Shown: positions 3,390 to 43,199, counted from the stretch's first letter. The stretch is DNA of 43,706 nucleotides from Thermoanaerobaculia bacterium (GCA_017883235.1 JADGNY010000050.1:1-43706), one strand, 5' to 3'. The notes: a model not told the origin generated them from the letters alone. Numbers and translations are program-made.

Positions 3390-5972
3390 ATGCTTGCTCC
3401 GGGCAGGATGCTCGGTCCGTACAAAATCCTCACGGCCATCGGTGCGGGCGGCATGGGCGAGGTGTACCGCGCGCAGGATACGCGCCTGGGCCGCGACGTC
3501 GCCGTGAAAGTTCTGACGCGCAACCTCTCCAATGACGCCGACGCGCTACGCCGGTTCGAACAGGAGGCGCGGGCGGCCGGGATGCTCAATCATCCCAACA
3601 TCCTGGCCATTTACGACATCGGCGATGAAGGCGGACTCCGCTACATCGTCTCCGAGCTTCTGGAGGGGGAATCGCTACGGGCTCGCATCAAGCAGAGTCC
3701 CATTCCACCGCGCAAGGCGCTCGACTACGCCGCGCAGATCGCCCGCGGGCTCGCCGCCGCGCACGAGCGGAGCATCGTCCATCGCGATCTCAAGCCGGAG
3801 AACCTCTTCATCACGCGCGACGGCCACGTCAAGATCCTCGACTTCGGTCTGGCCAAGCTCGCCGGCCCGCGGTTACCGAACGCGACGCCGGGAGACGAGA
3901 ACGAGCTCACCCTCCCCACCACCCCCACCGAGCCGGGGAGGCTCATGGGGACGGTGGGCTACATGGCACCGGAGCAGGTGCGCGGCGGCAGCGGCGATAA
4001 CCGCTCCGACATCTTCGCCTTCGGCGTGATTCTCTACGAGATGCTGGCCGGCGTCCCGGCCTTCCGCGGCGAATCTCCCATCGAGACGCTCAACTCCATC
4101 CTGAAAGACGATCCTCCCGATTTCTTCGAGCTCAACGTGCGGGTGCCGGGCGCGCTCGATCGCGTGGTCCGTCACTGTCTCGAGAAGAATCCCGACGAGC
4201 GCTTCCAGTCCGCCCGCGATCTCGCCTTCGACCTCGGGTCGCTCTCCGGCCTTACCAGTCAGGCCATCTCCTTCCACCGCAACTGGCACTTCCGAAAACG
4301 CGACGTCGTGAAACCGGCCGCGATCGTCCTGGCGATTCTCGCCGTGGCCGTGATCGCCTATCTGGCCGGACAGCGCCGCGGAACGCGGCCGCCGCCGGAG
4401 TACAAGCGCCTCACCTTCCGCAGCGGCACGATCTTCAACGCGCGATTCTCGCCCGACGGCGAGACCGTCTTCTACGGCGCGCGGTGGGGCGGCAAGCCGA
4501 TGTCGATCTTCTCGGTTCGCGCCGATTCACCCGAATCGCGCGACCTCCAGATCGGAGAAGACACCGACCTTCTCGCGGTCTCCCGCGACGGACAGCTCGC
4601 CATCTCGCTCCGTCGCCATGTCATCGGCTACCTGCGCGAGAGCGGAACGCTGGCCCAGGTGCCGATCGCCGGCGGTGCTCCACGATCGATTCTCGACGAC
4701 GTCGAATTCGCCGACTGGTCGCCGGACGGCCGGCTGGCCGTGGTCCGGACTGTCGGCGGCCGTTGCCGGCTGGAGTTCCCGATCGGCAACGTCGTCTACG
4801 ACACAAACGGATGGATCGGCCATCCACGTTTCGACCCTGCCGGCAAGTCCATCGGATTGCTCGACCATCCGTTTCTCAATGATGATCGTGGCTCGGTCGT
4901 TCTGGTCACGCTCGCCGGAAAAACGCATCGTGCTCTGACGAAGGAATCGCAGAGCGTCGAGGGGCTGGCGTGGTCGCCGGATGGCAAAGAGATCATCTTC
5001 TCCGCCGAGGATGGCAACACGCCGCGTGCGATCACCGCCGTCACCGTCGGCGGCAAACAGCGGATCGTCGCCGCGAGCGCTGGACCGCTCTGGCTTCACG
5101 ACGTCGCCCCCGACGGCCGTGTGCTCGTCTCGCGCGAGATCGTCCGCGCCGGAATCGTCGGCATCCGGGGAAATGAGCCGCCCCACGATCTGTCGTGGTT
5201 CGACTACTCCGTGGTGCGCGACCTCTCCGCCGATGGAAAGACGATCATCTTCTCCGAGTCGGGGGAAGCCGGCGGCTCGATCTTCGGCGTCTATCTGCGC
5301 GGCATCGACGGCTCGCCAGCAGTCAGGCTTGGCGATGGCACGTCGGAAGCTCTCTCGCCTGACGGGCAATGGGTTCTCTCCATCCCCCGCAACCGCAAGC
5401 CGGCTCCGATCGTCATGCTTCCCACCGGCACCGGCCAGCCGCGCCAGATCACGCACGACCGCATCAACCATCGCAACGCCCGCTGGTTTCCGGGCGGCGC
5501 GCACATCCTCTTTCTCGGCGATGAGAACGGACATCCGCCGCGGCTGTGGATGCAGGCCCTCGACGGCAGCGCGCCGCACGCCATCACTCCCGAGAATGTT
5601 TCCGGAACACAGATCACGCCCGACGGCCGCTTCGTTCTCGGCCGCGACAGCGACCGCAAGTTCTATCTCTATCCCGTCAGCGGCGGCGCACGCCTACCCG
5701 TGCCGGCGCTGAAGTTCGGCGACGTCCCCACACGCTTCACCGCCGACGGCCGTTCGCTCTTTGTGGCCTCGTTCGGAAAAGTACCGGCCATGCTTTACAA
5801 GGTCGACCTTACGAGCGGCGCCCGCACCCTCTCGCGCGAGGCGATGCCGGCCGATCCCTCCGGCCTCATCAACGTCGGCCCGATCTTCGTCACTCCCGAC
5901 GGCGCCACGACGGTGTACAGCTACACGCGGCTGCTGAGCGATCTTTATGTGATCGAGAGCCCGTCGCGATAA
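3390..5972 (+). CDS. Membrane Ser/Thr protein kinase with C-terminal PD40/WD40-like propeller
   Basis: An 860-residue PknB-type kinase. The cytoplasmic kinase domain spans about residues 11-285: glycine loop GAGGMGEVY, Lys40 in [12 protein letters not shown] with catalytic Asp133, DFG at 151-153, and MAPEQ at 192-196, so all catalytic residues are present. One membrane segment follows (about 309-326), then some 530 residues of repeated strands with FSPDG, WSPDG and TPDG motifs, which form a PD40 (TolB-like) beta-propeller, expected outside the membrane. The domain plan (kinase, TM, propeller) is very common in Acidobacteriota and is thought to couple external ligand sensing to phosphorylation; the ligand is unknown. 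ATG 3390 is chosen because it gives the standard N-terminus (P-G-x-x-L-G-P-Y). The gene is divergent from the aconitase-family gene and is followed by a palindrome at 5971. Confidence 0.92.
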
Positions 5973-7356: not shown

Positions 7357-9036
7357 ATGAAATCCATTGTCATCGCCGCAGCCATCGTCCTCAGCGCCGC
7401 CGTTTCGCTTGCACAGACCGCGGCGGAATCGATCGAAGTCCGCGTCGTCAACGTCGACGTCATCGTGCGCGACCGCGCCGGAAAGCCGGTCCCCGGCCTG
7501 ACCAAAGCAGACTTCGAGATCTACGAGAACGGCCAGAAGCGGGAGATCACGAACCTCTACGAAGTGCGTGGGGCTAGCCCCGCCGCGCCATCGGCGAAGA
7601 CACCGGTGCCTGCGAATGCGGCTCCGGCTCCAGCCGAGGGTGCGGCTGTCGAGATTCGTCCGCGCAACATCGTCATGTTCGTCGACAACTACTCGCTCCA
7701 GCCGTTTCGCCGCGACAAGGTCCTCCAATCGCTCCGGAAGTTCATCGACGGTCAGTTGCAGCCGCAGGACCGCGTGATGATCGTTCTCTGCACGCAACAG
7801 GTGAAGGTAATCACGCCGTTCACGAACGATAAGAAGGCCATCGAGGATGGCGTAGAGTCGATCAAGAAGATCGTCAGCGCCAGCTCCAACCGGGCCTCCT
7901 CTCTCGAACGGGTCAAACGTCAGGTCAGTGAGCTCATCGACACCGGCAAGGAGGGAAAGTTTCCCTGGAAGGATGTCTACGGCCAGGCGCTGGGACTGGT
8001 GGAGACTCTCATCGAGGAGGATATTTTCAGCGCAAGGAACACGCTGGCCGGGCTCGGGGCGACCACCGCCGCGCTCGGAGGACTGGAAGGCAAGAACGTC
8101 GTCATCTTCGCAGGCGCTCATCTCCCCGAGCATCCCGGCGCGGAGCTCTATCAGTGGCTCTACAACGCCTTTTCGCCCTACATGGGCAATCTCACACTGG
8201 GATCGGAGACCATCAGCGGCAAGACCGGATCGATGCAGTACTACTCGATCGAGGAGGCCGCCAAACAAGCCAGCGCGAACAATGTCGTGCTCTACCTCAT
8301 CGACGCCGCCGATATGCGCGATGCCGTCAGCGCCGAAAGCAATATTCAGGTCGACAAGATGGAGCAGTTCACCGCCTTCACCAACACGGCCATGGCCTAC
8401 CAGACGCTGGCCCGCATCAGCGGCGGGTTGGCGCTCACCAACTCCGACAATTTCGATTCCGCCTTCCAGACGCTCGCCGCCGATCTCAACTCCTACTACT
8501 CCCTCGGATTCAAGCCCTCCGGTACCGCAACCGACGCGCTGGGCAGGATCGTCGTCAAGATGAAGAACCCCGAGTACCGGTTCCGGGCCAGGGAGACGTA
8601 CGCCGCAAAGGCTCCGGCGGCGCCGCAGGACGAAATGAGCGCCCGCGTCACCACCAACCTCTATGCGACCGATGCCCGCAACGAGTGGGAGATCCATCTC
8701 AAACCGGGAACGCCCGAAAAACAGGGAAACGAATACCGCGTGCCGTTCGAGGTCACGCTGGCGCCGACGATCACGCTCAAACCCGACGGCGAGAACCTCG
8801 TCGGCAACTTTGCAATCTACGTCGTCGTCGGCAGCGGCGAGTCGACGTCGAAGGTGACCAGGAATATGCATGTGGTAAAGGTTCCCGCCGAGGCCGAAGA
8901 CGACTTTCGCGAGAAACAGATCACCTACAAGGCGTCGATCACGATGACGTCGGGGGAGAACATCCTCTCGGTTGCCGTCGTCGATCAGGCCAACAACAGC
9001 GCCGGGTTCGCGAGGGCAAAAGTTGCCGTTCCGTGA
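7357..9036 (+). CDS. VWFA-related domain protein, acidobacterial type
   Basis: A 559-residue exported protein with a clear signal peptide (about residues 1-20, ending AQT). Residues 25-70 carry the signature that opens this family: VRVVNVDVIVRDRAGKPV, then L-T-K-A-D-F-E-I-Y-E-N-G-Q. A linker rich in Ala and Pro follows, then the VWA-like core from about 103 (NIVMFVDNYS). The metal motif DxSxS is degenerate (Asp110-Asn-Tyr-Ser113-Leu), as is usual in this family. The tail (about 415-559) is beta-rich. By family knowledge such proteins are secreted and abundant in Acidobacteriota, with unproven roles in adhesion or protein interaction. The start ATG 7357 has GAGGTG six bases upstream. It follows the 6082 gene by 12 bases in a likely two-gene operon. 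Confidence 0.9.
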   Translation: MKSIVIAAAIVLSAAVSLAQTAAESIEVRVVNVDVIVRDRAGKPVPGLTKADFEIYENGQKREITNLYEVRGASPAAPSAKTPVPANAAPAPAEGAAVEIRPRNIVMFVDNYSLQPFRRDKVLQSLRKFIDGQLQPQDRVMIVLCTQQVKVITPFTNDKKAIEDGVESIKKIVSASSNRASSLERVKRQVSELIDTGKEGKFPWKDVYGQALGLVETLIEEDIFSARNTLAGLGATTAALGGLEGKNVVIFAGAHLPEHPGAELYQWLYNAFSPYMGNLTLGSETISGKTGSMQYYSIEEAAKQASANNVVLYLIDAADMRDAVSAESNIQVDKMEQFTAFTNTAMAYQTLARISGGLALTNSDNFDSAFQTLAADLNSYYSLGFKPSGTATDALGRIVVKMKNPEYRFRARETYAAKAPAAPQDEMSARVTTNLYATDARNEWEIHLKPGTPEKQGNEYRVPFEVTLAPTITLKPDGENLVGNFAIYVVVGSGESTSKVTRNMHVVKVPAEAEDDFREKQITYKASITMTSGENILSVAVVDQANNSAGFARAKVAVP

Positions 9037-25809: not shown

Positions 25810-28434
25810 TCACTTCCTCGCCAGCAGCCGCTCCGCTTCCTCCTTCCATCCGACGAACACGTTCAGCGGCTGGGTGGCGGGGGCGATGAGGCGGGTGGCG
25901 ACGAGGAGGCGGCCGTCGGGGGCGGCGTCGACGAAGGAGATCTCCTGATCGGTGGAGTAGATCCGGGTCGGAGGAGCGAAATCGATGGAGTCGCCGGTCG
26001 TCTTCACGGCCGCGGCGTAAACACCGCTGCCGGCGACGAAGTAGAGCTCGCGGCCGTCGCGGCTCCATGCAGGCGCGCGTCCGCTGTCGACTGACACGCG
26101 GATGCGGTCGGCGTGGTGATCGAAGGGGGCGACGTAGACCTCCTGCCGCCCGGAGTCGTCGGAGACGTAGGCCACCCAGCGCTGATCGGGCGAGATCCGC
26201 GCGCCTGATTCGCCGGCCGGCGTCTGCAGCCACGGCTTGCTGCTGCCGTCGCTGCTCGTAACGTAAATGTCGGAGCCGCTGGCCGGCTCGCCCGACGTGT
26301 AGAGGATGCTACCGTCGCGCATCCAATCGTCGACGCGCTGAATAGTGCCGGGCTTCGTGACCGGACGCTCTTCACCGCCGCCGAGCTGTTTCACGAACAC
26401 GCTCGGCGGGCCGTCGCGATTGGCGTTGAAGGCGATGGAACGTCCGTCGGGCGACCACACCGGCCGGCCGTGGTCGTGATCGGCGAAGGTGAGGCGGGTG
26501 AGCGACTTTCGCAGCAGGTCGGCGGTGTAGATGTCGCCGGTCAGCGTGCCGGCGGCGACGATGGCGGTGACGAGACGACTGCCATCGGGCGAGATGCGTC
26601 CCTGCACGTAGGCGGCGGGCGGAAGAGCCTCGCCGAGGACATGACCGGTTCGATCGACCCAGGTCAGGGCGGTGGACTGCTTCGCGTCGGCCCAGACCAA
26701 CTCGTCGCCGCCGGCGTCGTGCTGTGAGACGCCGGTGGGCGCGTAGAACAGGACGCCGTGGACGAGCGGCACGGCGTTGCCGGCGAGCTGAAAGCCCTTC
26801 TCGTCAAAGCGCTGCGCGAAGAGCGTTCCGTCGCGAACGAAGGTGAGCCAGGGGGCGTCGTATTGCGCGCGTCCGGCAACGTCGATCAGTTTGCGCGGAG
26901 CGCCGCCGGCGGTATCGACGATCCAAAGCGCCGTGCCGCTCTGGTCGATGGTGTTGAAAAAGAAATGATTCGTGGCTCCGATCGCCTGCGGCCCGCCGAC
27001 GTCGGTGCCCTCTTTCATGGCGAAGAGTTTGCGCGGCGTGCCGCCGCCGCTCGGGACGGCGAACATGCCGTGGCTGGTGGGAACCTGGGCGAAGACGATC
27101 GTGCCGTCGGACATCCAGGCCGCGCCAAGGCCGCCTGTGGTCGCGTCGCAGACCGTCTGCGGCGTCCCATCGTCGATTGAAACGGTCTTCAGCTTCGAAC
27201 CATCCAGGAATCCGATGGATCGGCCGTCGGGCGACCAGAACGGCCCCGAAACGAGGGTGGTCGATTCGAGCGGTTTGGCCACGCCGCGCCCGAGATGGTA
27301 GATCCACAACTGGCGCACATTCTTTGCGTCGCGCGCGGTGTAGGCGATCTTCGTTCCGTCGGGTGAGACGGCGATGGCCCCCGACGTGGTCGGCAAGGCG
27401 AAGCCGCCCCCAGCCGGCGGGGGAATCGAGAATCGCAGCGCGTGCATGACGGGCGCGGGACGGCGAAGCAGGGCCATTCCCAGGATGATGGCCAGGAGCA
27501 CGCTCACGCCGGCGACGGACCAGGCGGCCAGCGGACGTCGAGAGGTCGTCGTCACCACCGCCGGCTCTTCGCGCTCCGGGATCGAGCGCAGTTCGCTGGC
27601 GACATCCGCCGCGCACTGCCACCGCTCGTCAGGATCCTTGGCAAGGCACTTCATGATGAGCCGGTGCAGGGCTGCCGGCGCTATCGGCTGCAACTCTCCG
27701 ATCGGCGTGGGGTGCTCGGACATGATCTTGGTGATCAGGCTGGCCTGGCTCTTGGCGCTGAAGGCGCGCCGGCCGGTGGTCATTTCGTACAGCACAGTGC
27801 CGAGTGCGAAGATGTCCGTGCGGGCGTCGGTGGCTTCTCCTTCGAGCTGTTCAGGCGCCATGTACGGCAGCGTGCCGAGGATTGTGCCCTCGGCTGTAAG
27901 GGCCTCCTTCTCCACCCTGGTCTCCGCGTCAGGCGAGGTGGTCCCCATCTCCTCGGCCGCCTTGCGCGCCAGGCCGAAATCGAGCAGCTTCGGGCCGCTC
28001 TTCGTCAGCATGATGTTGGCGGGCTTGAGGTCGCGATGGACGATGCCGCTGTGGTGCGCTTTCGCGAGCGCGCCGGCGACGGCGGCGCCGATGCGCAGCA
28101 CGGCATCGAGCGGCAGCGGGCCTTTGCCGATACGATCGCTGAGCGCCTCGCCGTCGATGAGCTCCATCACCAGGTACTCGGTGCCGTTCTCGCTACCGAC
28201 GTCGAAGAGCGTGCAGATGTTCGGGTGGTTGAGCGCGGAGATGGCGCGAGCCTCTCGCTCGAAGCGCTCGCGCCCGCTCGATGTCGCGGAAACGTGCTGC
28301 GGCAGGACCTTCAGAGCGACGGTGCGGTCGAGGCGCGTGTCGCGCGCGCGGTAAACCTCCCCCATCCCGCCGGCTCCGATGAGCGAAACGACTTCATACG
28401 GCCCGAGCCGCGTACCGGGAGAGAGGGCGGTCAT
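25810..28434 (-). CDS. Membrane Ser/Thr protein kinase with C-terminal PD40/WD40-like propeller (second copy)
   Basis: An 874-residue relative of the 3390-5972 product with the same plan. Kinase domain about 12-280: GAGGMGEVY, Lys42 (VALK), HRDLKPAN with Asp135, DFG at 152-154, MAPEQ. A membrane segment (about 303-325, WSVAGVSVLLAIILGMALL) leads to a propeller of about 530 residues with repeated VSPDGTKI, WSPDGRSI and ISPDQRW motifs. All catalytic residues are present. The overall sequence differs enough from the first copy that they are old paralogues. A TATAGT box lies 12 bases before the start codon, which implies a leader of only a few bases. The two following genes on this strand (upstream in transcription) encode secreted propellers, but the intergenic gap of 84 bases makes co-transcription uncertain. 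Confidence 0.93.
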   Translation of the reverse strand: MTALSPGTRLGPYEVVSLIGAGGMGEVYRARDTRLDRTVALKVLPQHVSATSSGRERFEREARAISALNHPNICTLFDVGSENGTEYLVMELIDGEALSDRIGKGPLPLDAVLRIGAAVAGALAKAHHSGIVHRDLKPANIMLTKSGPKLLDFGLARKAAEEMGTTSPDAETRVEKEALTAEGTILGTLPYMAPEQLEGEATDARTDIFALGTVLYEMTTGRRAFSAKSQASLITKIMSEHPTPIGELQPIAPAALHRLIMKCLAKDPDERWQCAADVASELRSIPEREEPAVVTTTSRRPLAAWSVAGVSVLLAIILGMALLRRPAPVMHALRFSIPPPAGGGFALPTTSGAIAVSPDGTKIAYTARDAKNVRQLWIYHLGRGVAKPLESTTLVSGPFWSPDGRSIGFLDGSKLKTVSIDDGTPQTVCDATTGGLGAAWMSDGTIVFAQVPTSHGMFAVPSGGGTPRKLFAMKEGTDVGGPQAIGATNHFFFNTIDQSGTALWIVDTAGGAPRKLIDVAGRAQYDAPWLTFVRDGTLFAQRFDEKGFQLAGNAVPLVHGVLFYAPTGVSQHDAGGDELVWADAKQSTALTWVDRTGHVLGEALPPAAYVQGRISPDGSRLVTAIVAAGTLTGDIYTADLLRKSLTRLTFADHDHGRPVWSPDGRSIAFNANRDGPPSVFVKQLGGGEERPVTKPGTIQRVDDWMRDGSILYTSGEPASGSDIYVTSSDGSSKPWLQTPAGESGARISPDQRWVAYVSDDSGRQEVYVAPFDHHADRIRVSVDSGRAPAWSRDGRELYFVAGSGVYAAAVKTTGDSIDFAPPTRIYSTDQEISFVDAAPDGRLLVATRLIAPATQPLNVFVGWKEEAERLLARK

Positions 28435-30582: not shown

Positions 30583-33021
30583 TCAGTTTGTCTTGGCTAA
30601 CCCCGTCACTCGCAGCCCGTCATGGCTACTGGCCTTCGCGCCTTCCAGGGAACCGGGCGTGACCGGAGATGCCTCCGTCGCGGTCAAGCTCACGGTGGTG
30701 ATGCTCGTCTTCACCCCGTCGGAGGCGGTGAGCTGGAAGACGTAGAGATCGGCGACGTCGGGGATGAACGAAGGATTCCGCATCGAGGCGGAGGAAAGCG
30801 CACTGCGCGAGCCCGCCGGCTGCCGGACGATGCGCCATCGCCAGCTCGTCGCGGTTTGCGGATAGGTGCCGAGCTGTCGCATCCCGCCGACCGCGCCGGT
30901 GGCGATATCGATGGTGGCGACGTCGGCAAGTGCCGGCCTTCCGATGCGGATCTTGTTGTTACCCGTGTCAGCGACGTAGACATTTCCGCTGCGGTCGGTC
31001 GCCACTCCCATGGGGCTGTTGAAGCGCGCGACGCTGCCTGTGCCATCCTCGCTGCCAACGTGGCGCAGCGAAGAGGCCAGGGTCGTCACGACGCCAGCTG
31101 GAGTGATCTTTCGGATCGTGGCGTTGTCCCTTTCGGCCACGTAGACGTTTCCGCCGCCGTCGGTCGCTACGCTCATCGGAAAGTTGAAGCGCGCGGCGCT
31201 GCCGGTTCCATCTACGTAATCGAGGAGACGTGCCGAACCGGCCAGGGTCGTCACGATCCCCGCCGGGGTGATCTTTCGGATCGTGCTGTTGAAGTCCTCG
31301 GCCACATAGATGTTGCCGCCGCTGTCGGTTGCCACAGCCGTGGGGCGGCTGAAGCGCGCTACGCTGCGGGTTCCGTCCGCACTGCCATCGAGGCCCGCTG
31401 AGCCCGCGAGTGTCGTCACCATACCCTTCGGCGTGATTTTTCGGATGGTGTAGTTATCCCTGTCGGCTACATACACATCCCCAGCCCTGTCGGTTGCCAC
31501 ACCCGTAGGATATTGGAAGTGCGCCGCGCTGCCCGGTCGCTGCGCGCTACCGGTGGGATCCGTCGTCGCCGAGCCGGGAAGTGTCGTCACGACTCCCGCC
31601 GGAGTGATCTTTCGGATACTGTTGTTGAATTGGTCGGCGACGTAGACGTTTCCGTCGCTGTCGGTCGCCACTCCCGCGGGAGTGAAGAAGCGCGCGGCGC
31701 TGCCGGTTCCATCCGCACTTCCGCCAGCGTTGCCCGGCGAACCCGCGAGAGTCGTCACCACTCCGGCCGGGGTGATCTTTCGGATCGTGTCATTGCGTTG
31801 GTCGGCCACATAGACGTTCCCGGCGCTGTCGGCGGCCAGCGCGACAGGAGAATTGAAGCGCGCGGCGCTGCCGGTTCCGTCCGCGCTGCCTATGGGGCTC
31901 GGCGAACCCGCGAGAGTCGTCACTACCCCGGCCGGCGTGATTTTTCGGATGGTGTCGTAGTCGCTGTCAGCGACATAGATGCTCCCGTCGCTGTCGGTCG
32001 CAAGTGCAGTGGGAGACCTGAATCGCGCTGCATCGCCGGTTCCATCTTTGCTGCCTGAACGAGCCTTCGCTGAGCCGGCCAGTGTGGTCACCTCTCCCGC
32101 CGGCGTGATCTTCCGAATCGTGCCGCTCACGGAGTCGGCCACGTAGACGTTCCCGCCGCTGTCGGTCGCCAGCCCGGTGGGAGAGTGGAAGCGCGCTGCG
32201 CTGCCGGTTCCATCGTCGCTGCCTGCGGGAGCCGTCGCCGAGCCGGCGAGTGTCGTCACCACGCCGGCCTGCGTGATCTTCCGGATGGTGCGGTTCTCGC
32301 TGTCAGCGATATAGACGTTTCCGCCGCTGTCGGTCGCCATTCCTGTGGGAGAGTGGAAGCGGGCGGTGCTGCCCGTTGCATCGGCGTAGCCCCCGAGGCC
32401 CGCCGAGCCCGCGAGAGTGGTCACGATTCCTGCCGGGGTGACCTTGCGGATCGTGTTGTTGAACTGGTCGGCCACGTAGATGTTCCCGTCGCTGTCGGTT
32501 GTCACTCCCGTGGGAGAGTGGAAGCGCGCGGCGCTGCCGGTGCCATCCGCGCTACCGGCGGGAGACGACGCCGAGCCAGCCAGCGTCGTCACGACCCTCC
32601 CCTGGGTGATCTTTCGGATCGTGTTGTTGGATGTGTCGGCGACGTAGACATTCCCGCCGCTGTCGGTCGCCACTCCAAAGGGAGCGACGAAGCGCGCTGC
32701 GCTGCCGGTTCCATCGTCGTTGCCCATGAGGTTGGCGCAGCCAGCGAGAGTCGTTACGACTCCCGCCGGGGTGATCATTCGAATCGTGTGGTTGATCTGG
32801 TCGGCGACGTAGACGTTGCCTCGGCTGTCGGTTGCCACTCCTCGAGGATTGTTGAAGCGTGCGTCACTACCGGCTCCGTCCGCCGATGCCGGGCCGCCCG
32901 CCGGCCCTGCGAGCGTGGTGAAAGTCAGTGGTTGGGCGTGGACCGTGAACGTGGTCGCCGCAAGAACGCAGCACCCGCTCAGAACGCGGAATGTGAACCG
33001 CCCGAGGTTGCGTAACATCAT
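30583..33021 (-). CDS. Secreted NHL-repeat protein, 12 repeats plus Ig/PKD-like end
   Basis: About 812 residues. Signal peptide (VLSGCCVLAATTFTVHAQ), then twelve repeats of 54-56 residues with the consensus G-V-A-T-D-S-x-G-N-V-Y-V-A-D, then N-x-T-I-R-K-I-T-P-A-G-V-V-T-T-L-A-G-S, then D-G-T-G-S-A-A-R-F. These are NHL beta-propeller blades; twelve would close two six-bladed propellers. The last repeat ends N-N-K-I-R-I-G-R-P-A-L, a cap shared by all three paralogues, followed by a beta domain of about 90 residues (TSWRWRIVRQPAG, DLYVFQLTASDGVKTSITTV) of Ig/PKD type. ATG 33021 or the adjacent ATG 33018 is the start, behind AAGGA. The very even repeats point to recent duplication. It is likely a surface binding protein; the ligand is unknown. 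Confidence 0.85.
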   Translation of the reverse strand: MMLRNLGRFTFRVLSGCCVLAATTFTVHAQPLTFTTLAGPAGGPASADGAGSDARFNNPRGVATDSRGNVYVADQINHTIRMITPAGVVTTLAGCANLMGNDDGTGSAARFVAPFGVATDSGGNVYVADTSNNTIRKITQGRVVTTLAGSASSPAGSADGTGSAARFHSPTGVTTDSDGNIYVADQFNNTIRKVTPAGIVTTLAGSAGLGGYADATGSTARFHSPTGMATDSGGNVYIADSENRTIRKITQAGVVTTLAGSATAPAGSDDGTGSAARFHSPTGLATDSGGNVYVADSVSGTIRKITPAGEVTTLAGSAKARSGSKDGTGDAARFRSPTALATDSDGSIYVADSDYDTIRKITPAGVVTTLAGSPSPIGSADGTGSAARFNSPVALAADSAGNVYVADQRNDTIRKITPAGVVTTLAGSPGNAGGSADGTGSAARFFTPAGVATDSDGNVYVADQFNNSIRKITPAGVVTTLPGSATTDPTGSAQRPGSAAHFQYPTGVATDRAGDVYVADRDNYTIRKITPKGMVTTLAGSAGLDGSADGTRSVARFSRPTAVATDSGGNIYVAEDFNSTIRKITPAGIVTTLAGSARLLDYVDGTGSAARFNFPMSVATDGGGNVYVAERDNATIRKITPAGVVTTLASSLRHVGSEDGTGSVARFNSPMGVATDRSGNVYVADTGNNKIRIGRPALADVATIDIATGAVGGMRQLGTYPQTATSWRWRIVRQPAGSRSALSSASMRNPSFIPDVADLYVFQLTASDGVKTSITTVSLTATEASPVTPGSLEGAKASSHDGLRVTGLAKTN

Positions 33022-33027
33022 CGTCCT

Positions 33028-33047
33028 TCCCCCTGTATGGATGGACC
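33028..33047 (-). promoter_or_regulatory. Shared leader motif of the NHL genes, copy 1
   Basis: Read on the minus strand this is GGTCCATCC followed by ATACAGGGGGA, ending seven bases before the start codon. The same block precedes the other two NHL genes (35912-35931 and 37809-37827), and its CAGGGGGA core precedes the small lipoprotein-like gene at 36583. It includes the ribosome binding site but is longer than one, so it may be a binding site for a regulator or small RNA, or just a trace of duplication. Confidence 0.5.
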
Positions 33048-33558
33048 TGCATTTTTCGCGAACTGAATAGCGTAGTTCCCGCACTCCCTTTTCGCAAGCC
33101 GGACTGTGCCGGCCACACCACGCGCACGCGTGCTGAGCAAAGACGGCCCATCTTCCGCGGCACCCACCAAAGGCTTTGGGCGCTGTCGGGTGCACGCCGA
33201 AGCTTTCGGGGCAACCCGCGCTACGCGGTGCGCAGAATGATGTCGTCGGGCGGTTGCCCGCTGGACCGGTTCACCGCGCCCTGGCCGGCGACGAACTGGA
33301 ATCCGCTTCGATGCCGCGAAGATCGCCGAGGCCCTCGCGATCGGGGCCGAGAATGCTCGCGGCGAGGCCGTGGATCAGGAACTGATTCGGCGCGAGGTCG
33401 AGGTCCTTCGATGCCGTTCCTCCACACTGCAGCCTCGAGCCCGCCGGGAACGAGAATCGAGGCATGATCGGCACGGGCGCGCTGCTGCCCGCTCGTCTCC
33501 GGTCCGAACTTCGTGCGGAAGGTAACCAGGGCGGCGCGAGCAACGTTGTCCGTCACGG
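33048..33558. other. Gene-free stretch between NHL genes with degraded coding-like DNA
   Basis: About 510 bases without a gene I can support. Several frames on both strands stay open for 60-100 codons, and pieces look coding-like, such as VARAALVTFRTKFG and ILVPGGLEAAVWRN on the minus strand, and FDAAKIAEALAIGAENARGE on the plus strand, but no frame has a start, a full domain and a stop together. It may hold the remains of a gene. At its left edge (33551-33572) there is a block GTCACGGCT(T)AGTGACCTACCG that recurs after the third NHL gene (36750-36771). Confidence 0.4.
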
Positions 33559-35908
33559 CTAGTGACCTACCGCGCGGTGTCTGGGACCGGGTTTGACCGA
33601 AGTTGCCGTCAACTCCACGTTCGTGATGCTCGTCTTCACTCCGTCGGAAGCGGTGAGCTGGAAGATGTAGAGGTCGGCCACGTCGGGGGTAAAGACGGGA
33701 TTGCGGATCGAGGTGGAGGAGAGCTGTACCGCTGAGGCGGCGGGCTGACGAATCAGAGTCCATTGCCAGCTCGTGGCGGTCTGCGGAGATGTGCTGAGCT
33801 GGCGCGTCGTGGCGATGGCTCCGGTAGGAAAGTCGATCACGGCGGTGTCTGAGAGCGCTGGTCTGCCGATGCGGATCTTGTTGTTGAACGAGTCGGCTAC
33901 ATAGACGTTCCCAAGGCTGTCGGTCGCCACTCCATCGAAAAAGTCGCCACCGGACACTGCCATGGGTGAATAGAAGCGCGCGACGCTGCCGGTTCCATCC
34001 TCGTTGCCCGAGAGCGCGCTCGACGAGCCGGCCAGCGTCGTCACCACCCCAGCCGGCGTGATCTTCCGAATCGTTGCGCCAAACAGGTCCACCACATAGA
34101 GGTTTCCGCCGCTGTCAGTCGCCAATCCAGCGGGAAAGCTGATGCCTGCGGCGGCCATGGTGGTTACCACGCCATCCGGCGTGACCTTTCGCATCTTGAA
34201 CTGGTCGGATACATAGACGTTTCCGCCGCCGTCGGCCGCTACTCCTGTAGGATTTTCGAAGCGTGCGACACTGCCTGTTCCATCCACACTGCCGGAGAGA
34301 CCCGCCGAGCCGGCCAGGGTCGTCACAACCCCCGCCGACGTGATCTTCCGGATCGTCTTGTTGAGCGAATCGGCCACATAGACGTTCCCGCCGCTGTCGG
34401 TCGCTACCCCCGCGAGAACGTTGAAGCGGGCCGCGCTGCCAGTCCCATCCGCGCTACCGGAGGGATCCGTCGCCGAGCCGGCCAGGGTCGTCACCACTCC
34501 CGCCGGGGTGACCTTCCGGAGCGTGTAGCCGTCGGCCACATAGAGGTTCCCGGCGCTGTCGGTCGCCACTCCCTCGGGAGAGCCAAAGCGTGCAGCGCTT
34601 CCGGTTCCATTGGCAAAGCCGGGAACGCCCGCCAGGCCAGCCAGTGTCGTCACCACCCCCGCCGGGGTGATCTTCCGGATCGTGGAGTTGTCCGAGTCGG
34701 CCACATAGACGTTTCCGCTGCTGTCGGCCGCCAAACCTCGAGGAGTGGAGAAGCGCACGGCAGTGCCGGTACCATCCGTGCTGCCAGAGGGGCCCGCCGA
34801 GCCGGCCAGCGTGTTCACGACGCCTGCCGGAGTGATCTTCCGGATCGCGTAACCGTCGGCCACATAGACGTTCCAGCCGCTGTCGGTCGCCACTCCCTCG
34901 GGAAAGAAAAAGCGCGCGGCGCTGCCGGTTCCATCCGCGCTGCCAAAGAGGCTAGCCGAGCCCGCGAGAGTCGTCACGACGCCGCCCGCGGTGATCTTCC
35001 GGATCGTGGAGTTCCCGTAGTCGGCCACATAGACCGTTCCCGCCGCTGCCGGTCGCCACTCCAACTGGATTGTTGAAGCGGGCGGCGCTGCCGGTTCCAT
35101 CCGCACTGCCGTAGACGCTGGCCGAGCCGGCCATAGTTGTCACCACTCCCGCCGGGGTGATCTTCCGGATGGTGTTGTTTCCCCTGTCGACCACATAGAC
35201 GTTCCCGCCGCTGTCGGTCGCCACTCCCGTAGGATCGTTGAAGCGCGCGGCACTGCCGGTTCCGTCCGCGCTACCACTGTGGCCCGCCGAGCCCGCGACA
35301 GTCGTCACCACTCCGGCCGGAGTGATCTTCCGGATGATGTCGCTGAAGCTGTCGGCCACATAGACGTTCCCGCTGCTGTCGATCCCCACTCCAAAGGGAC
35401 CGTCGAAACGAGCGGCGCTGCCGGTTCCGTCCGCGCTATCGGAGAAATCCGTCGCCGAGCCGGCCAGCGTCGTCACCACCCCCGCCGGGGTAATTTTTCG
35501 GATCGTGGAGTTCAACAGGTCGGCCACATAGACGTTCCCTCCACTGTCGATCGCCAAGCCCCTCGGGAAGTGAAAGCGTGCGGCGCTACCGGTTCCATCC
35601 GCGCGACCGGGCTGGCCCGTCGAGCCGGCCAGGGTCGTCACCACCCCCGCCGCGGTGATCTTCCGGATCGTATGGCGATCGGAGTCCGCCACATACGCGT
35701 TCCCGGCGCCGTCGATCGCCACGCTCATGGGATTCGTGAAGCGCGCAGCGCTGCCGGTGCCATCCACCGACCCCGGGCCGCCCGACGGTCCGGCGAAGGT
35801 GGTGAAAGTCAGTGGCTGGGCGTGTACAGTGAACGCTGACAGCGCGAGAACGCAGCATAAGCTCAGCACGCGGAACGTGAACCGCTTGAGGTTGCTCAGC
35901 TTGATCAT
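33559..35908 (-). pseudogene. Secreted NHL-repeat protein with a +1 frameshift (12 repeats)
   Basis: Two overlapping frames together encode one NHL protein of about 782 residues. The first part runs from ATG 35908 (signal peptide VLSLCCVLALSAFTVHAQ) through four and a half repeats, then goes out of frame; the second continues the fifth repeat at T-V-Y-V-A-D-Y-G-N-S and runs to TAG at 33559. The cause is one extra C at 35034/35035: this copy reads AGACCGTTCC where all other repeats read AGACGTTCC. The full protein would have twelve repeats (two of them shortened), the N-N-K-I-R-I-G-R-P-A-L cap and an Ig/PKD-like end, as in the neighbours. It is either a recent pseudogene or an assembly error. 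A truncated protein would hold fewer than five blades. Confidence 0.8.
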
Positions 35909-35911
35909 TTC

Positions 35912-35931
35912 TCCCCCTGTCCGGATGGACC
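35912..35931 (-). promoter_or_regulatory. Shared leader motif of the NHL genes, copy 2
   Basis: On the minus strand GGTCCATCC followed by GGACAGGGGGA, ending four bases before ATG 35908. It differs from copy 1 in only two positions over 20. Confidence 0.5.
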
Positions 35932-35935
35932 GAGA

Positions 35936-36583
35936 TCACCTGGGACCGTGCTGTACGAGAATCTGGTTGATGATGTCTTCCATCATCGCCACGATGTACT
36001 GGTCGTCTGTCTTGATTGCTGATGAAACGACAGTCGCGACTTTCAGAATCGTATCCAGCCTCCCGAAACCTCTTGAGCTGCCCGCGAAGGGTGAATACTC
36101 TGCGTGGTATACGTACTTGCCGATCAGTTGATCAGACTCATTGTACAGCGACAGCATCACTTCCATCGTAGACTTGTCTCCCCCAACCAGACCTGAAGCT
36201 CTGCCGAGGACCGGCAGACTCATCTCCGTCACGACCAGTTCAAGTTTGACTTTGTTATCTCCCAGGAACGTCAGATTCTTCCTGGCACGTTGTGAAAAGA
36301 GTAACTGCACGCGCTCGACAGTCAGCGGCTGGTCTTTCTCTAAGACGCCAGTCGCTGCGACTGCCTCCACCCTGTTCAACTGTGCCGCGGCGATGCTGGT
36401 GATTGTTTGATTCACACCGGTGGCGGTGTCGACGCGGACGTCGCTCACTCCCAATCTGTGCTCAAAGTTTCCGGGTAACGGCAAAATCGCGTTGCTGGTA
36501 CTGGCACAGTTCGTCGCCGCAAGAATGACCAAGAGTGCGAGCATTGTGCGACATGACTGGTTCCTGTTCATCTGAATTCTCAT
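35936..36583 (-). CDS. Small exported protein, lipoprotein-like, within the NHL cluster
   Basis: A 215-residue protein starting at ATG 36583 with GGGGGA seven bases upstream. The N-terminus (RTMLALLVILAATNC) is a signal peptide with a possible lipidated Cys, though A-T-N-C is a poor lipobox. The mature part is mixed alpha/beta: LGVSDVRVDTATGVNQTI, LTVERVQLLFSQRARKNLTFLGD, VKLELVVTEMSLPVLGR and MEVMLSLYNESDQLIGKYVYHAEYSPFAG, ending in a helix with Met and Ile. This layout, a beta sheet giving a lipid-anchored periplasmic domain, recalls the DUF4410-like lipoproteins, but I cannot claim the family. It lies in the same orientation as the NHL genes and shares their CAGGGGGA leader core, so it may be expressed with them. 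Confidence 0.65.
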   Translation of the reverse strand: MRIQMNRNQSCRTMLALLVILAATNCASTSNAILPLPGNFEHRLGVSDVRVDTATGVNQTITSIAAAQLNRVEAVAATGVLEKDQPLTVERVQLLFSQRARKNLTFLGDNKVKLELVVTEMSLPVLGRASGLVGGDKSTMEVMLSLYNESDQLIGKYVYHAEYSPFAGSSRGFGRLDTILKVATVVSSAIKTDDQYIVAMMEDIINQILVQHGPR

Positions 36584-36620
36584 ATCGTCCCCCTGTTTTT
36601 GACGCCCTTGTCTCAATGCA

Positions 36621-37805
36621 CTAACAGCCAATCCGGCTCCGCCATGGCTGATCAGAACCGGCTTTCTCAACTAACTCACTGTTTCTTCTACTCATTCGCC
36701 GAGTTTCGCCCTCGGCGCCCAAGCTGGTTGGCCATCGCCTGTGTTGCCGGTCACGGCTTAGTGACCTACCGAGCGTCGGTCTGCTACTGACCGGCGTTGC
36801 TGTCAAACTTATGGTCGTGATGCTCGTTCTCACCCCATTGGAGGCGGTGAGCTGGAAGATGTAGAGGTCGGGCACGTCGGGGGTGAAGACTGGATTGCGG
36901 ATCGAGGTGGAGGAGAGCGTGGCGGTGGAGGCTGAAGGCCGGCGAATCAGAGTCCACTGCCAGCTCGTGGCGGTCTGCGCAGAGGTGCTGATTCGACGCG
37001 TCGTGCCAACGGTGCCGGTAGAAAAGTCGATGGTGGCGGAGTCGGCGAGTGCCGGCCTGCCGACACGGATCTTGTTGTTGAATGTGTCGGCGACAAAGAC
37101 GTTCCCTCTGCTGTCAGTCGCCACTCCCTGGGGACCGCTGAAGCGCGCGGCGCTGCCGGTTCCATCCGCGATGCCGGAGAGGCCCGCCGAGCCCGCGAGA
37201 GTCGTCACCACCCCGGCCGGGGTGATTTTTCGAATGGTGCTGTTAGACGAGTCTGCCACAAAGACGTTCCCGCCGCTGTCGGTGGCCACTCCCGTGGGAG
37301 AGTTGAAGCGCGCGGCGCTGCCGGTTCCATCCACGCTGCCGGAGACGCGTGGAGAGCCGGCGAGGGTCGTCACCAGCCCAGCCGGGGTGATCTTGCGGAT
37401 CGTGTGGTTACTCCATTCGGCAACATAAACGTTCCCTCCGCTGTCAGTCGCCACTCCCGCGGGCAGCGCAAACCTCGCGGCGCTGCCGATTCCATCCGCG
37501 CTGCCGCTTAAGCCCGCCGAGCCGGCCAGGGTGGTCACCACTCCCGCCGGAGTGATCTTTCGGATCGTGTTGTTACCCCATTCGGAAACATAAACGTTCC
37601 CGCCGCTGTCGGTCGCCACTCCAACGGGAAAGTCGAAGCGCGCGGCGCTGCCGGTTCCGTCCGCCGATCCCGGGCCGCCCGCCGGTCCGGCGAAGGTGGT
37701 AAAGGTTAGCTGCTGAGCGTGTACGGTGAACGTGGTCGCCGCGAGAAGGCAACATCCGCTCAGCACACGAAGTGTGAACCGACCGAGGTCGTGCAGCTTG
37801 ATCAC
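36621..37805 (-). CDS. Secreted NHL-repeat protein, short form (4 repeats)
   Basis: A 394-residue paralogue of the two other NHL proteins. GTG 37805 starts a signal peptide (VLSGCCLLAATTFTVHAQ), followed by only four 55-residue repeats, the N-N-K-I-R-V-G-R-P-A-L cap and the Ig/PKD-like domain (TSWQWTLIRRPS, DLYIFQLTASNGVRTSI). Four blades cannot close a six-bladed propeller alone, so oligomers or a loss of function are possible. After TATPVS the last 55 residues are Arg- and Ser-rich and match nothing in the paralogues; the DNA still aligns to the 3' end of the middle gene, with a one-base shift past the stop, so this tail is probably translated read-through. The repeats are close to those of the larger genes, which fits loss or gain of units by recombination. 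Confidence 0.82.
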   Translation of the reverse strand: MIKLHDLGRFTLRVLSGCCLLAATTFTVHAQQLTFTTFAGPAGGPGSADGTGSAARFDFPVGVATDSGGNVYVSEWGNNTIRKITPAGVVTTLAGSAGLSGSADGIGSAARFALPAGVATDSGGNVYVAEWSNHTIRKITPAGLVTTLAGSPRVSGSVDGTGSAARFNSPTGVATDSGGNVFVADSSNSTIRKITPAGVVTTLAGSAGLSGIADGTGSAARFSGPQGVATDSRGNVFVADTFNNKIRVGRPALADSATIDFSTGTVGTTRRISTSAQTATSWQWTLIRRPSASTATLSSTSIRNPVFTPDVPDLYIFQLTASNGVRTSITTISLTATPVSSRPTLGRSLSRDRQHRRWPTSLGAEGETRRMSRRNSELVEKAGSDQPWRSRIGC

Positions 37806-37959: not shown

Positions 37960-40854
37960 CTACGCCGCCGCGGACTGCTTCCGCTTCTGCATCTGCACCG
38001 TATCGAGGTCGTGCAGCAGTTCGCCGGCGTTTCCGTAGCGCGCCTTCGGATCCTTGGCCAGACAGCGCATGACGATGGCGTTCACCTCGCGCCCGATCTC
38101 GGGACGCAGCTCGATCGGCGGCCTGGCGTTCTCGGTGATGTGCGCGGTCAGGACGCCGGTCAGCGACGAGGAGACGAACGGCTTCTGTCCGGCCAGCATC
38201 TCGTACAGCATCACGCCCATCGAATAGACGTCGCTGCGCGGGTCGAGCTGTTTGCCCTGCACCTGCTCGGGACTCATGTAGTGCGGCGTTCCGACGATGA
38301 GCCCCGCCTGCGTCATCCCCTCATGCACCTCGGCCATGCGCGCGATGCCGAAGTCCATCAGCTTCACCTCGCCCTTGTGGTCGATGAGGACGTTCTGCGG
38401 CTTGATGTCGCGATGAATGATTCCCTGCTCGTGCGCTGCTTCCAGTCCCCGGCAGATCTGGCGGGCGATGCCCATGCCGACGCGCGGGACCATCTGATGC
38501 GCCGGCGCTTCCTCCAGCAACTCCGCCAGCGTGTAGCCGCGCACGAATTCCATCGAGATGAAGTAGACCCCTTCGGCCTCGCCGTAGTCGTACGTGCGCA
38601 GGACGTTGCGATGCGTGATCTTGCGGGCCAGACGGATCTCGCGCTTGAACCGCTCCAGATCCTCCGGCGAGCGCGACATCACATCTCCCGGCAGCGTCTT
38701 GATGGCCACCGTCTCGTCGAGTTGCGCGTCGACCGCTTTGTAAACGACCCCCATGCCGCCGCGGCCGATGATCGAATCGATACGGTAGCGGTTCGCGAAA
38801 ACCGATCCCGGCACCAGTTCCTGTGCGGTGATGGCACCGGGCGCGGTCTGTCCCGGGGTCGTCTCGTCGATGCGCATGGTGGCCATCGCGCTCGGCGTCT
38901 GCCCGATCGCGCGCATCATGTTCGTGGTCAGACTCACCAGCGGCATCGACGCCACCGGCAGCGGCTGCGGAAGCCACTTGAGCTGCACCTGCTCGCGCGA
39001 CGACGTAGAGATGATCTCGCCGCCCGCCGCTTGCGCCGTTTCATACGAGATGTAGGCGTACCCGGTCGGTGCGTGCCAGGCGAAAAGCATCGCCAGCAAA
39101 GGAGCGTTGCCGACGATGGCGATGCCGTTATCGCCCTGAAGGTCGACCGATCCTGTGACGAACTCGCCGGTGGCGATGCCGGCGCCGATGGTCATGTGCC
39201 TCTCGCCCATCGTGGCCAGCTCCTCGTTGATGGCGCGGGCGGCGCGGATGGCGTGAAGGATTCCGCGGTCTCCGCGGAAGATACTGACCAGATGATGCCC
39301 AAGGATCTCGCGGACGAAGCCATCCTGCCGCTCCACTTCCGCTTCCTGCAGCTTCATGGCCTTGCTGACGGCGGCAATCACGTTTCCGGCGTCGCCTGCG
39401 CCGACGGTGGCGGGAAGGTCGCGGAGATCGGTGACCAGCACCGTTCCTTCGTCGAGTTTGGCAGCCTCGCTCTGGCGCGGCGCACCAACGGCCTCGCGCT
39501 CCTGCGATTTGGCCGCCATCTGCTCGTACAGCTCCTCGATCTCGGCCTTGTCGCGGAGGGCGGTGATCATCTTGGCGAAGGAGCGCCCGAGGATTCCGAC
39601 TTCGTCGCTGCGGTCGATTGGCGGATGGACGGTGTAATCGCCACCCGTCACGGACTGCGCGATCATGGCCAGCTCTTCGATCGGATGCGTCACCCGTTTG
39701 GCGATGAGCCACGAGAAGACGAAGGCCAGCAGCAGCGCGGCGCCGCCGCCGGCCAGCAGCGCGTTCTCGATCTCCTTGAACGGTTTCAACTCGCTATCGA
39801 GCGAACGAAGGAACACCGCCGCGCCAACGGTCTGGCTACCGAAGCTGCTTTTTTCATCCAGAACGACGACTGACTGCAGCGGCCCGCCGGTCATGACGTA
39901 CTTGCTGCGCTCGATCTCGACGGTCGAAGGCTTGACGTCCTTGCCGGTCTTGAGAATCGGGTCGACCACGGTGATCTGGGCCATGTTGAAAATCGGCGCT
40001 TCCTTCGAGCGGACGGGCGGATTGGTCGCGTCCGCCGATGCGAAGATGACCTCGGCATTGGTCGACTCGGCGATGCGGTTCGCAAAGACGTCGTCGATCA
40101 GGTATGCGTTGATGAGATAGCCGACCCGGACGTTGTTCGCGCCCAGACTCATCGGCGCGATCGCGGCGTGATACAGATGGTCCCCCGTGGTGATGACTCC
40201 CTGGTCGACGGGGACCGTGGGCTCGTCGACGATGTGCTTCACCATTGGCATCGTCGTGTAGAGGTCTTCCATCTTGTCGCCGGACAGCTCCGGGCGATCC
40301 GTGCGCGACAGAACGCGTCCCTGACCGTCGAGGACGATCATGAGATCGCTGCGGAGAAAGTCCTTCTTCTCCGTCAATTGATCGAGGATGTCCGCGAAAT
40401 CGATCGCGGTCGTGCCTGCAGGCTGAGGTGACGCCGGCGTGACGGCCTCCGTCGCGGCCGGCGGTTGCGGCGAGGCGGGGGCTCCGGCGACTGGCCCGGG
40501 AGCAATCTCGCTCATCGCGGTCATGGCGTGCTGCATGTACGCCACGAACGAGGGATCGCGGCCAAGGAACTTGGCACTGAGCGCCAGCCTTCCGAGACGC
40601 TGGCGTTCGAGCTCCTTGAAAAGCTTTGCGGCGCTGGCAATGGACTTATCGACGGTCGTGTTCGCGATCGCATTCGCCCGCTGGATGGTGATTCCGATGG
40701 CGATGCCGACGACGATGACGATGAGAAGTGCGGTCAGGCCGAAGAGTTTCCAGACCAGCGGAAACTTTGCCTTCTCCACGACAGGCGCCTTTCGCTTCGG
40801 CAATTCGCCGGTAGTGGTTTGCCCGGCCGGCGCGACATTCGACTCAGCGGTCAA
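37960..40854 (-). CDS. Receptor Ser/Thr kinase with HAMP and degenerate nucleotide-cyclase domain
   Basis: A 964-residue protein with an unusual order: TM1 (about 35-57), a periplasmic sensor of about 305 residues (60-365, Cache-like, with a Pro/Ala-rich insert at 118-150), TM2 (366-386), HAMP (387-440), a class III nucleotide-cyclase-like domain (468-612), a linker, and a C-terminal kinase (690-960). The kinase is complete: GRGGMGVVY, Lys719, HRDIKPQN (Asp816), DFG 834-836, MSPEQ. The cyclase domain keeps the first metal Asp (VTDL, Asp476) but the second is His520 (G-H for G-D), and the N-x-x-x-R pair is lost (VGNAPLLAMLF), so it is probably not a cyclase and may bind a nucleotide or transmit signal. 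TTG 40854 lies one base after the stop of the cupredoxin gene and has GAGGGAG seven bases upstream, so translation is coupled. Confidence 0.85.
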   Translation of the reverse strand: MTAESNVAPAGQTTTGELPKRKAPVVEKAKFPLVWKLFGLTALLIVIVVGIAIGITIQRANAIANTTVDKSIASAAKLFKELERQRLGRLALSAKFLGRDPSFVAYMQHAMTAMSEIAPGPVAGAPASPQPPAATEAVTPASPQPAGTTAIDFADILDQLTEKKDFLRSDLMIVLDGQGRVLSRTDRPELSGDKMEDLYTTMPMVKHIVDEPTVPVDQGVITTGDHLYHAAIAPMSLGANNVRVGYLINAYLIDDVFANRIAESTNAEVIFASADATNPPVRSKEAPIFNMAQITVVDPILKTGKDVKPSTVEIERSKYVMTGGPLQSVVVLDEKSSFGSQTVGAAVFLRSLDSELKPFKEIENALLAGGGAALLLAFVFSWLIAKRVTHPIEELAMIAQSVTGGDYTVHPPIDRSDEVGILGRSFAKMITALRDKAEIEELYEQMAAKSQEREAVGAPRQSEAAKLDEGTVLVTDLRDLPATVGAGDAGNVIAAVSKAMKLQEAEVERQDGFVREILGHHLVSIFRGDRGILHAIRAARAINEELATMGERHMTIGAGIATGEFVTGSVDLQGDNGIAIVGNAPLLAMLFAWHAPTGYAYISYETAQAAGGEIISTSSREQVQLKWLPQPLPVASMPLVSLTTNMMRAIGQTPSAMATMRIDETTPGQTAPGAITAQELVPGSVFANRYRIDSIIGRGGMGVVYKAVDAQLDETVAIKTLPGDVMSRSPEDLERFKREIRLARKITHRNVLRTYDYGEAEGVYFISMEFVRGYTLAELLEEAPAHQMVPRVGMGIARQICRGLEAAHEQGIIHRDIKPQNVLIDHKGEVKLMDFGIARMAEVHEGMTQAGLIVGTPHYMSPEQVQGKQLDPRSDVYSMGVMLYEMLAGQKPFVSSSLTGVLTAHITENARPPIELRPEIGREVNAIVMRCLAKDPKARYGNAGELLHDLDTVQMQKRKQSAAA

Positions 40855-40855
40855 C

Positions 40856-41533
40856 TCAGTACTCCCTCGTGCTCGACGGCTGATAGGGCTTGCCGACTTT
40901 GTTCATGTGCACCGTGGCGCGGTAGTTGCGGCTGTCGAGCGTGAGAGTGACCGCCTGGCTCAGCCCACTGGTCGTGACGTCGATCACTGGTGCTTCGCTC
41001 TGCCCGCCCTGTTCGTTCCAGACCACGAGGCGGTATTTGCCCGGCGGGACATCGCCGACGGAAAAACCGCCGTTCGCGTCCGCGAAGCCGAAGTAGGGCG
41101 TCGACAGGACATGGATGACCGCCGACATGTTCGGGTGGACGTTGCAATAAATGTTGACGATGCCCGGCGTATCGAATTTCTGTGTCTTGCCTGTGCCCTT
41201 GCGGTAGAGCCCGAGGTCGAAGGCGTTGTTCGACGAGAGCGAGAAAAGGTTGTGCGAAATAGGATCGTCGTTGGGAAACCCGACGGTCGACCCGACGGGA
41301 ATGGCCAGCACGTGCGGAATCAGGATCTTGTTCCGGGTGACGATCTGAAACGTTCCGGGAGTGCGGCGCGGAACCTTGCCGCCGAGCGGCTCGAGCCAGA
41401 CCAGCGTTTCGGCCGGCACCGGGTTCTGCCCGCGCTTCGTCACGAAGGCGATTTTCCCGGTGACGTTAGCCGCTGCCAAGGGAAGCGCAGCGATCGCGAA
41501 GAACACCGCAAGAAAAGCCGGAAGTCGTTTCAT
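40856..41533 (-). CDS. Secreted cupredoxin with carboxypeptidase-regulatory-like domain
   Basis: A 225-residue exported protein. Signal peptide: LPAFLAVFFAIAALPLAA. Residues 60-142 form a plastocyanin-like fold with the type 1 copper ligands His94 (PISHNLF), Cys130, His133 and Met136 (IYCNVHPNM), as in the methylamine-utilisation-like and plastocyanin/azurin families. Residues 145-205 are a beta-sandwich of carboxypeptidase-regulatory type (ADANGGFSVGDVPPGKYRLVV). It could carry electrons or sense copper or redox state; no partner oxidase is nearby. It is the first gene of a two-gene unit and its stop codon is followed after one base by the start of the receptor kinase gene, so the two are made together. 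That pairing is the main hint of a role as the extracellular part of a signalling pathway. Confidence 0.85.
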   Translation of the reverse strand: MKRLPAFLAVFFAIAALPLAAANVTGKIAFVTKRGQNPVPAETLVWLEPLGGKVPRRTPGTFQIVTRNKILIPHVLAIPVGSTVGFPNDDPISHNLFSLSSNNAFDLGLYRKGTGKTQKFDTPGIVNIYCNVHPNMSAVIHVLSTPYFGFADANGGFSVGDVPPGKYRLVVWNEQGGQSEAPVIDVTTSGLSQAVTLTLDSRNYRATVHMNKVGKPYQPSSTREY

Positions 41534-42842: not shown

Positions 42843-43199
42843 GAAGATTCGGAGTGAACGATCGATTCTGCGGAGTGAACGATCGATTCTGCGGAGTCAG
42901 CAATCGATTCTGCGGAGTCAGCAATCGATTCTGCGGAGTCAGCAATCGATTCTGCGGAGTCAGGGATCGATTCTACGGAGAGAGGAATCCTCTCTCCGCA
43001 TTCAGAAATGGTTACTCCGCATTCAGAAATGTTCACTCTGCATGCAGCAATCGATACTCCGCAGTCAGAGATCGTGACTCCGCATTCAAGGATCGATCCT
43101 GCGCAGTCAGACATCGTGACTCGGCATTCAACGACCGATACTGCGCAGTCAGAGATCGTGACTCGGTATTCAGCAATCGATTCTACGCAGTCAAAATCG
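42843..43199. repeat. 21-bp tandem array, 17 units
   Basis: Seventeen head-to-tail units of exactly 21 bp, the clearest being GATTCTGCGGAGTCAG plus CAATC. Units 3-5 are identical; towards 43199 they diverge and alternate between GATTCTGCG-type and GTGACTCGG-type openings. All frames on the plus strand and at least one on the minus strand stay open through the array, because no stop occurs in the unit, so openness is not evidence of coding. It fills the gap between a minus-strand gene (start 42668) and a plus-strand gene (start 43449) and is followed by an AT-rich stretch. Its minus-strand unit shares the core TCGATTG-x-x-GA-x-T with the array at 10101. Confidence 0.88.

Follow-up and report, generated by a model that had tools for sequence, protein, structure and literature searches.

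The window analysed here is a 43,706-nucleotide stretch of DNA from a Thermoanaerobaculia bacterium (GCA_017883235.1 JADGNY010000050.1:1-43706), the minus strand of which carries a cupredoxin gene (41533..40856) followed by the gene for a receptor kinase (40854..37960); every feature of this pair described below lies on that strand. The first gene encodes 225 amino acids from an ATG start and is supported by its open reading frame, by matches to blue copper proteins in the PDB and by orthologues. The second encodes 964 amino acids from a TTG start, on the evidence of its open reading frame, Pfam matches and orthologues. A single base (40855) separates the cupredoxin TGA (40858-40856) from the receptor TTG (TGA-G-TTG). 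The junction (40852..40867) includes a Shine-Dalgarno-like AGGGAG within the final cupredoxin codons, and across the window's family the last cupredoxin codons spell such a site, either AGGGAG or AAGGA, close upstream of the receptor start. The one-base gap and TTG restart pointed out in an earlier note on this DNA are plain in the sequence, and the gap is 0-5 nucleotides (nt) in 13 of 13 intact loci of the family, with overlaps (-14 or -17 nt) in several other families. Judged from this spacing, the cupredoxin and the receptor are translationally coupled. The same note went on to propose that the two proteins are made in a fixed ratio. We have not adopted this claim, because the Shine-Dalgarno-like AGGGAG in the last cupredoxin codons gives the receptor a separate ribosome site of its own.

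The cupredoxin begins with a probable Sec signal peptide, MKRLPAFLAVFFAIAALPLAAA (41468..41533), judged from the sequence by eye. It matches blue copper proteins in the PDB with an E-value of 2e-6, and its Pfam and family matches to amicyanin and Copper-bind are weak; against the amicyanin model TIGR02657 it scores 16.5 bits, under the curated cut-off of 110.2. The ligands of a type-1 copper site (H94, C130, H133 and M136; 41126..41254) are invariant in 24 of 24 aligned kinase-paired cupredoxins, and their amicyanin-like C-x2-H-x2-M spacing is common to amicyanin and other type-1 cupredoxins. In contrast to amicyanin, however, the window protein falls under the family cut-offs and has both an additional C-terminal beta domain, where a CarboxypepD_reg-like (carboxypeptidase-regulatory-like) domain is found, and an HxNKxGxxY tail. 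By ligand arrangement and structure matches it is a type-1 copper protein, for which copper binding and redox cycling are predicted. The tail itself, HMNKVGKPYQPSSTREY (residues 209-225; 40859..40909), carries the motif HxNKxGxxY...Y with which the kinase-paired cupredoxins end, and its H209, N211, K212, Y217 and Y225 are invariant in the 24 sequences. Given that the last codons also spell the Shine-Dalgarno-like site, a constraint on the DNA may explain part of the conservation of the final tripeptide.

The receptor consists of an N-terminal helix, a periplasmic domain, a HAMP domain (residues 383-435), a further domain at about residues 467-640 and a kinase domain (residues 690-944). Pfam recognises the HAMP domain (E 4.6e-12) and the kinase (Pkinase, E 2.4e-57) and gives a weak CHASE4 match. 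With Pfam alone, neither the sensor (no dCache_3) nor the cyclase domain of the window receptor was recognised, and both were identified by profile comparison and structure prediction. The AlphaFold2 model of the sensor (predicted local distance difference test score, pLDDT, 89.6) matches Cache receptors of the PDB in Foldseek, LuxQ among them; dCache_3 is found in 25 of 35 and 12 of 25 relatives in two sets (best E 7.8e-17 and 1.5e-11, respectively), all of which have HAMP. As modelled, the receptor is of the dCache type, with a double-Cache fold between two transmembrane helices and then HAMP: the first helix and the sensor take up residues 34-365 (39760..40755), and the second helix and HAMP residues 366-437 (39544..39759). 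The C-terminal kinase (38023..38787) is PknB-like. PknB is its closest match in the PDB (E 7e-57), and in alignment it has the complete catalytic set of a Ser/Thr kinase, comprising the glycine loop GRGGMG, K719 of an intact VAIK, E739, D816 of HRD and D834 of DFG. The kinase domain and catalytic residues are thus common to the window receptor and the Hanks-type kinases of the PknB family, but the sensor is dCache-HAMP (plus pseudo-cyclase) instead of extracellular PASTA repeats and the kinase lies at the C-terminus; NF033483, which describes PknB-type kinases with such repeats, matches the kinase part only, at 337 bits against a cut-off of 450.

Between HAMP and kinase lies a degenerate class III cyclase domain (residues 467-640; 38935..39456), which in the window receptor scores below the threshold of Pfam Guanylate_cyc. 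A profile of 18 such degenerate domains aligns with the intact class III cyclases of sister receptors (hhalign probability 99.1, E 8e-19), the AlphaFold2 model has a pLDDT of 88, and the best Foldseek matches are the guanylyl cyclase Cya2 and the adenylyl cyclase CyaC (E 1e-13). When residues are assigned against the intact cyclases of two relatives (L122 and L157), the first metal-binding Asp is kept (D476), the second is replaced by H520 (codon at 39295..39297), the substrate Lys by E516, the Asn by L586 and the Arg by L590. The earlier note had described the change of Asp to His at 520 and the loss of the Asn and Arg, and we confirm both in the window. The 12 family receptors that carry the domain have lost these residues uniformly, so that intact sites are not what most orthologues retain: position 520 is His in 11 and Gln in one, the Asn and Arg are gone from all 12, and the substrate Lys is likewise replaced in every case. 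By sequence and model, then, the domain has a class III cyclase fold but fails the active-site residue set. Outside the window's family, both metal-binding Asp residues are missing from L126, L167 and L186. Between the window and a congener, the ratio of non-synonymous to synonymous substitution rates (dN/dS) is 0.07 for the cyclase domain, 0.054 for the kinase and 0.20 for the sensor, and the value of 0.07 indicates strong purifying selection on the cyclase domain, not decay.

Such selection, together with the retained D476 and fold, could mean that nucleotide binding, or the formation of an unusual product, persists in the domain as an allosteric input to the kinase. The same may be said of L129, where a near-intact cyclase domain (7811-8356) occupies the same position between HAMP and kinase and keeps both Asp residues and the Arg, with His in place of the Asn; it is possible that this domain is an intermediate between active and dead forms. 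We regard a nucleotide input, which would be compatible with the explanation that we prefer below, as unlikely: the window's family has other residues in place of the second Asp, the substrate Lys, the Asn and the Arg, and sister receptors with the same sensor and kinase have no cyclase domain. In most cupredoxin-coupled kinases (26 of 47 tree rows) the kinase domain follows directly on HAMP. The kinase tree needs only three label changes for the receptors with a pseudo-cyclase, and two receptors without one (L115 and L118) nest inside the window's family, which implies that the domain was lost there while sensor, kinase and cupredoxin stayed. Since the pseudo-cyclase is optional or absent in most pairs, and was lost within the family, it would be at most a dimer or relay spacer and not the core of the system. 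The view that it is the defining relay of the layout is not borne out by these losses, nor by the other outputs that replace the kinase.

The pairing of cupredoxin and receptor was followed in several ways. We surveyed 61 relatives, with orthologues throughout the window's family and more distant ones in its class, and found the cupredoxin directly upstream of receptor orthologues among them; in the class, 27 of the 28 assessable receptors are paired. The exception is in G041, where the cupredoxin overlaps a GAF/sigma-54 activator by 35 nt in the receptor's place (L105:2695-4978). At L040:6899-7505 (G007) and L119 (G015) the cupredoxin gene is broken, in one by an in-frame stop or frame change and in the other by masked bases, with the receptor still open, which is possibly due to assembly error. 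A scan from the cupredoxin side covered 84,980 genomes and yielded 472 relatives. The best 80 of these, which were examined, come from Acidobacteriota, Gemmatimonadota and Lysobacterales, and each of the 80 loci with enough flank has a homologous dCache-HAMP receptor adjoining, mostly with a slight overlap or 0-5 nt between the two genes; of the 71 scorable loci, 64 have their nearest start either overlapping the cupredoxin stop or no more than 5 nt away. From the receptor side, a sensor profile run over 297 Acidobacteriota genomes gave 97 receptor matches outside the groups examined earlier, and 82 of them have a cupredoxin within 6 kb, 49 directly adjacent (33 on the same strand and 16 divergent). 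In genomes of the f34 and f20 types, the cupredoxin is divergent from the receptor or about 2.4 kb downstream. The co-occurrence of the two genes and the conservation of the gap, which the earlier note had put forward for checking across genomes, both hold, and the kinase is not found mostly without the cupredoxin. Short gaps are common in bacterial operons, and the two genes might merely be co-transcribed without a functional link. This is very improbable, however, given 82 of 97 receptors against a rough chance expectation of about 1 in 97 (1% per receptor, with about three cupredoxin matches per 4.7 Mb genome) and a link that is kept over several phyla and in different orientations. Judged from these gene arrangements, soil Acidobacteria and some of their relatives hardly ever make the tailed cupredoxin without a membrane receptor alongside.

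Behind the common sensor the output varies, and may be a Ser/Thr kinase with or without a pseudo-cyclase, a histidine kinase or a class III cyclase. Among 35 receptors of the non-Ser/Thr-kinase kind, HisKA is found in 32 and HATPase_c in 31, while L122 and L157 have Pfam-positive intact class III cyclases and are convergently encoded. A tail-less paralogous cupredoxin is coupled to dCache-HAMP-GGDEF-EAL receptors; the paralogous loci L094-L101, of the same family and order, have -14 or -4 nt overlaps and often a predicted outer-membrane protein gene nearby. The tail is present in 51 of the 52 kinase pairs (the one without it being a fragment of a broken gene), in 33 of 37 histidine-kinase pairs and in all four cyclase pairs. 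It is absent from 8 of 8 GGDEF-type pairs and, in uncut loci, from all 11 cupredoxins that have no receptor; the four tailed cupredoxins that lack a receptor are at contig ends or accompany truncated receptors. From this distribution the tail is restricted to cupredoxins whose receptor partner is of the kinase, histidine-kinase or cyclase kind, and its conservation provides the best hint in the sequences of a contact with the receptor. At five histidine-kinase loci (L127, L130, L139, L143 and L166) an upstream porin-like gene, with C-terminus AYLF or AYIF, overlaps the cupredoxin start, and at some of these a gene for an OmpR-type response regulator also precedes the cupredoxin. Porin-like protein, cupredoxin and histidine kinase could possibly form a unit reaching from the outer to the inner membrane. 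A Pfam Porin_5 match at the porin-like genes was seen only in Lysobacterales.

Our preferred explanation, to which we give a probability of roughly 0.52, makes the pair one sensory unit, with the cupredoxin serving the dCache receptor as its sensing or regulatory subunit. The proposal draws on the resemblance of the sensor model to LuxQ, a receptor regulated by the periplasmic protein LuxP. The cupredoxin would be secreted to the periplasm with copper loaded in its type-1 site, and would contact the inner-membrane dCache receptor, probably through its HxNKxGxxY...Y tail. Its copper occupancy, redox state or mere presence may then shift the conformation of the dCache and HAMP domains, and the shift would be relayed through the catalytically dead cyclase to the PknB-like Ser/Thr kinase, which is taken here to be active. 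Because HAMP receptors and class III cyclases are dimers, a dead domain with the cyclase fold is most simply understood as a dimer or relay spacer ahead of a kinase of the type activated by dimerisation, a relay role that we infer. Several points weigh against this reading. Direct contact between cupredoxin and receptor, and copper or redox state as the signal, are both steps that we infer, and copper loading and kinase activity are predicted from intact sites. The dCache domain might bind a small ligand of its own. The arrangement in the f34- and f20-type genomes fits co-regulation as well as it fits a complex, and in G041 the receptor lies about 90 kb from the cupredoxin. Finally, the porin-like genes near the histidine-kinase and Lysobacterales loci hint that the cupredoxin might instead serve as an output, in transport or electron transfer.

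This last point belongs to the main rival, which makes the cupredoxin an effector, carrying electrons or handling copper in a process that the receptor controls, and gives the dCache domain a small molecule as its own separate signal. It is in keeping with the small ligands that dCache domains usually bind, with the operons at histidine-kinase loci that include porin-like genes and response regulators, and with the superfamily cupredoxins that adjoin cytochrome oxidase-like genes at L091, L093 and L107. We nevertheless consider it rather unlikely. The pairing outlasts changes of output between different kinds of phosphorylation and cyclic nucleotides, as would be expected of a common input more than of a common target; no other link is as tight or as well conserved as the receptor junction, the remaining neighbours being variable; and the tail is confined to receptor-paired cupredoxins. 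The invariant copper ligands and the one-to-one coupling would also suit a receptor that governs how the cupredoxin folds or is loaded with copper, or a pair acting in periplasmic copper quality control with the apo-cupredoxin sensing copper stress, but this is improbable, in that the family neighbourhoods examined held no recognised genes for copper export, chaperones or multicopper oxidases. A conserved functional neighbour was sought in the window's family and only housekeeping genes were found, with no clue to the target; those named by sight are a sigma factor, DNA primase, a MutS2-like protein and acyl-CoA dehydrogenase. Downstream of the receptor, the minus strand of the window carries a run of NHL-repeat beta-propeller genes (30583-37805) that is not kept beside the pair in relatives, and upstream of the cupredoxin there are tandem 21-bp and 42-bp repeat arrays (42850-43199; period 21, 6.2 copies, 94% match). 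Two more Ser/Thr kinases, by sight fused to C-terminal propeller-like repeats, are encoded at 3390-5972 and 25810-28434, and the genome appears rich in Hanks-type kinases.

We found no description of the cupredoxin-receptor pair in the literature searched, which left subscription papers largely outside. Periplasmic partners of sensor kinases are already known from DbfQ-DbfRS (PMC12714742) and PlrP-PlrSR (PMC13001219), and co-component systems provide a further case (PMC9214523). As in LuxP/LuxQ, DbfQ-DbfRS and PlrP-PlrSR, a separate periplasmic protein is encoded beside a membrane sensor, and, as with LuxP and LuxQ, the partner gene adjoins that of the receptor across lineages, which is read here from the genes. 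Unlike the cupredoxin, the partners in those three systems are, as far as is known, not copper proteins; each system also has a single histidine-kinase output, whereas the cupredoxin pairs have a swapped set. In animal receptor guanylyl cyclases such as GC-A, an extracellular sensor is followed by a pseudokinase and then an active cyclase. The window receptor resembles GC-A in placing one inactive catalytic-type domain between an outer sensor and an enzyme domain, but it is a mirror image, with a pseudo-cyclase before a kinase that has intact residues, and the sensors and HAMP are unrelated. In the YfiB-YfiR-YfiN system, which spans the envelope from the outer membrane through the periplasm to the inner membrane, a redox-active periplasmic protein controls a HAMP receptor that is an inner-membrane diguanylate cyclase. 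The layout is similar, but YfiR is no cupredoxin and YfiN is a GGDEF enzyme.

More broadly, and tentatively, at a little under even odds, these pairs may represent widespread cupredoxin-gated receptors, in which one copper-protein/dCache input serves exchangeable outputs (cyclic di-GMP enzymes included, by way of the paralogue), the tail docks on the receptor, and the Thermoanaerobaculia form mirrors the animal receptor guanylyl cyclases. Within the one receptor family, naturally occurring cyclase domains range from intact ones, by way of the near-intact domain of L129, to dead ones, and the wiring of one input to several outputs across lineages is open to domain-exchange tests. If our reading is correct, copper proteins would join the known periplasmic sensing partners, and bacterial Ser/Thr receptor kinases, for the majority of which no signal is known, would gain in the cupredoxin one of their few candidate inputs.

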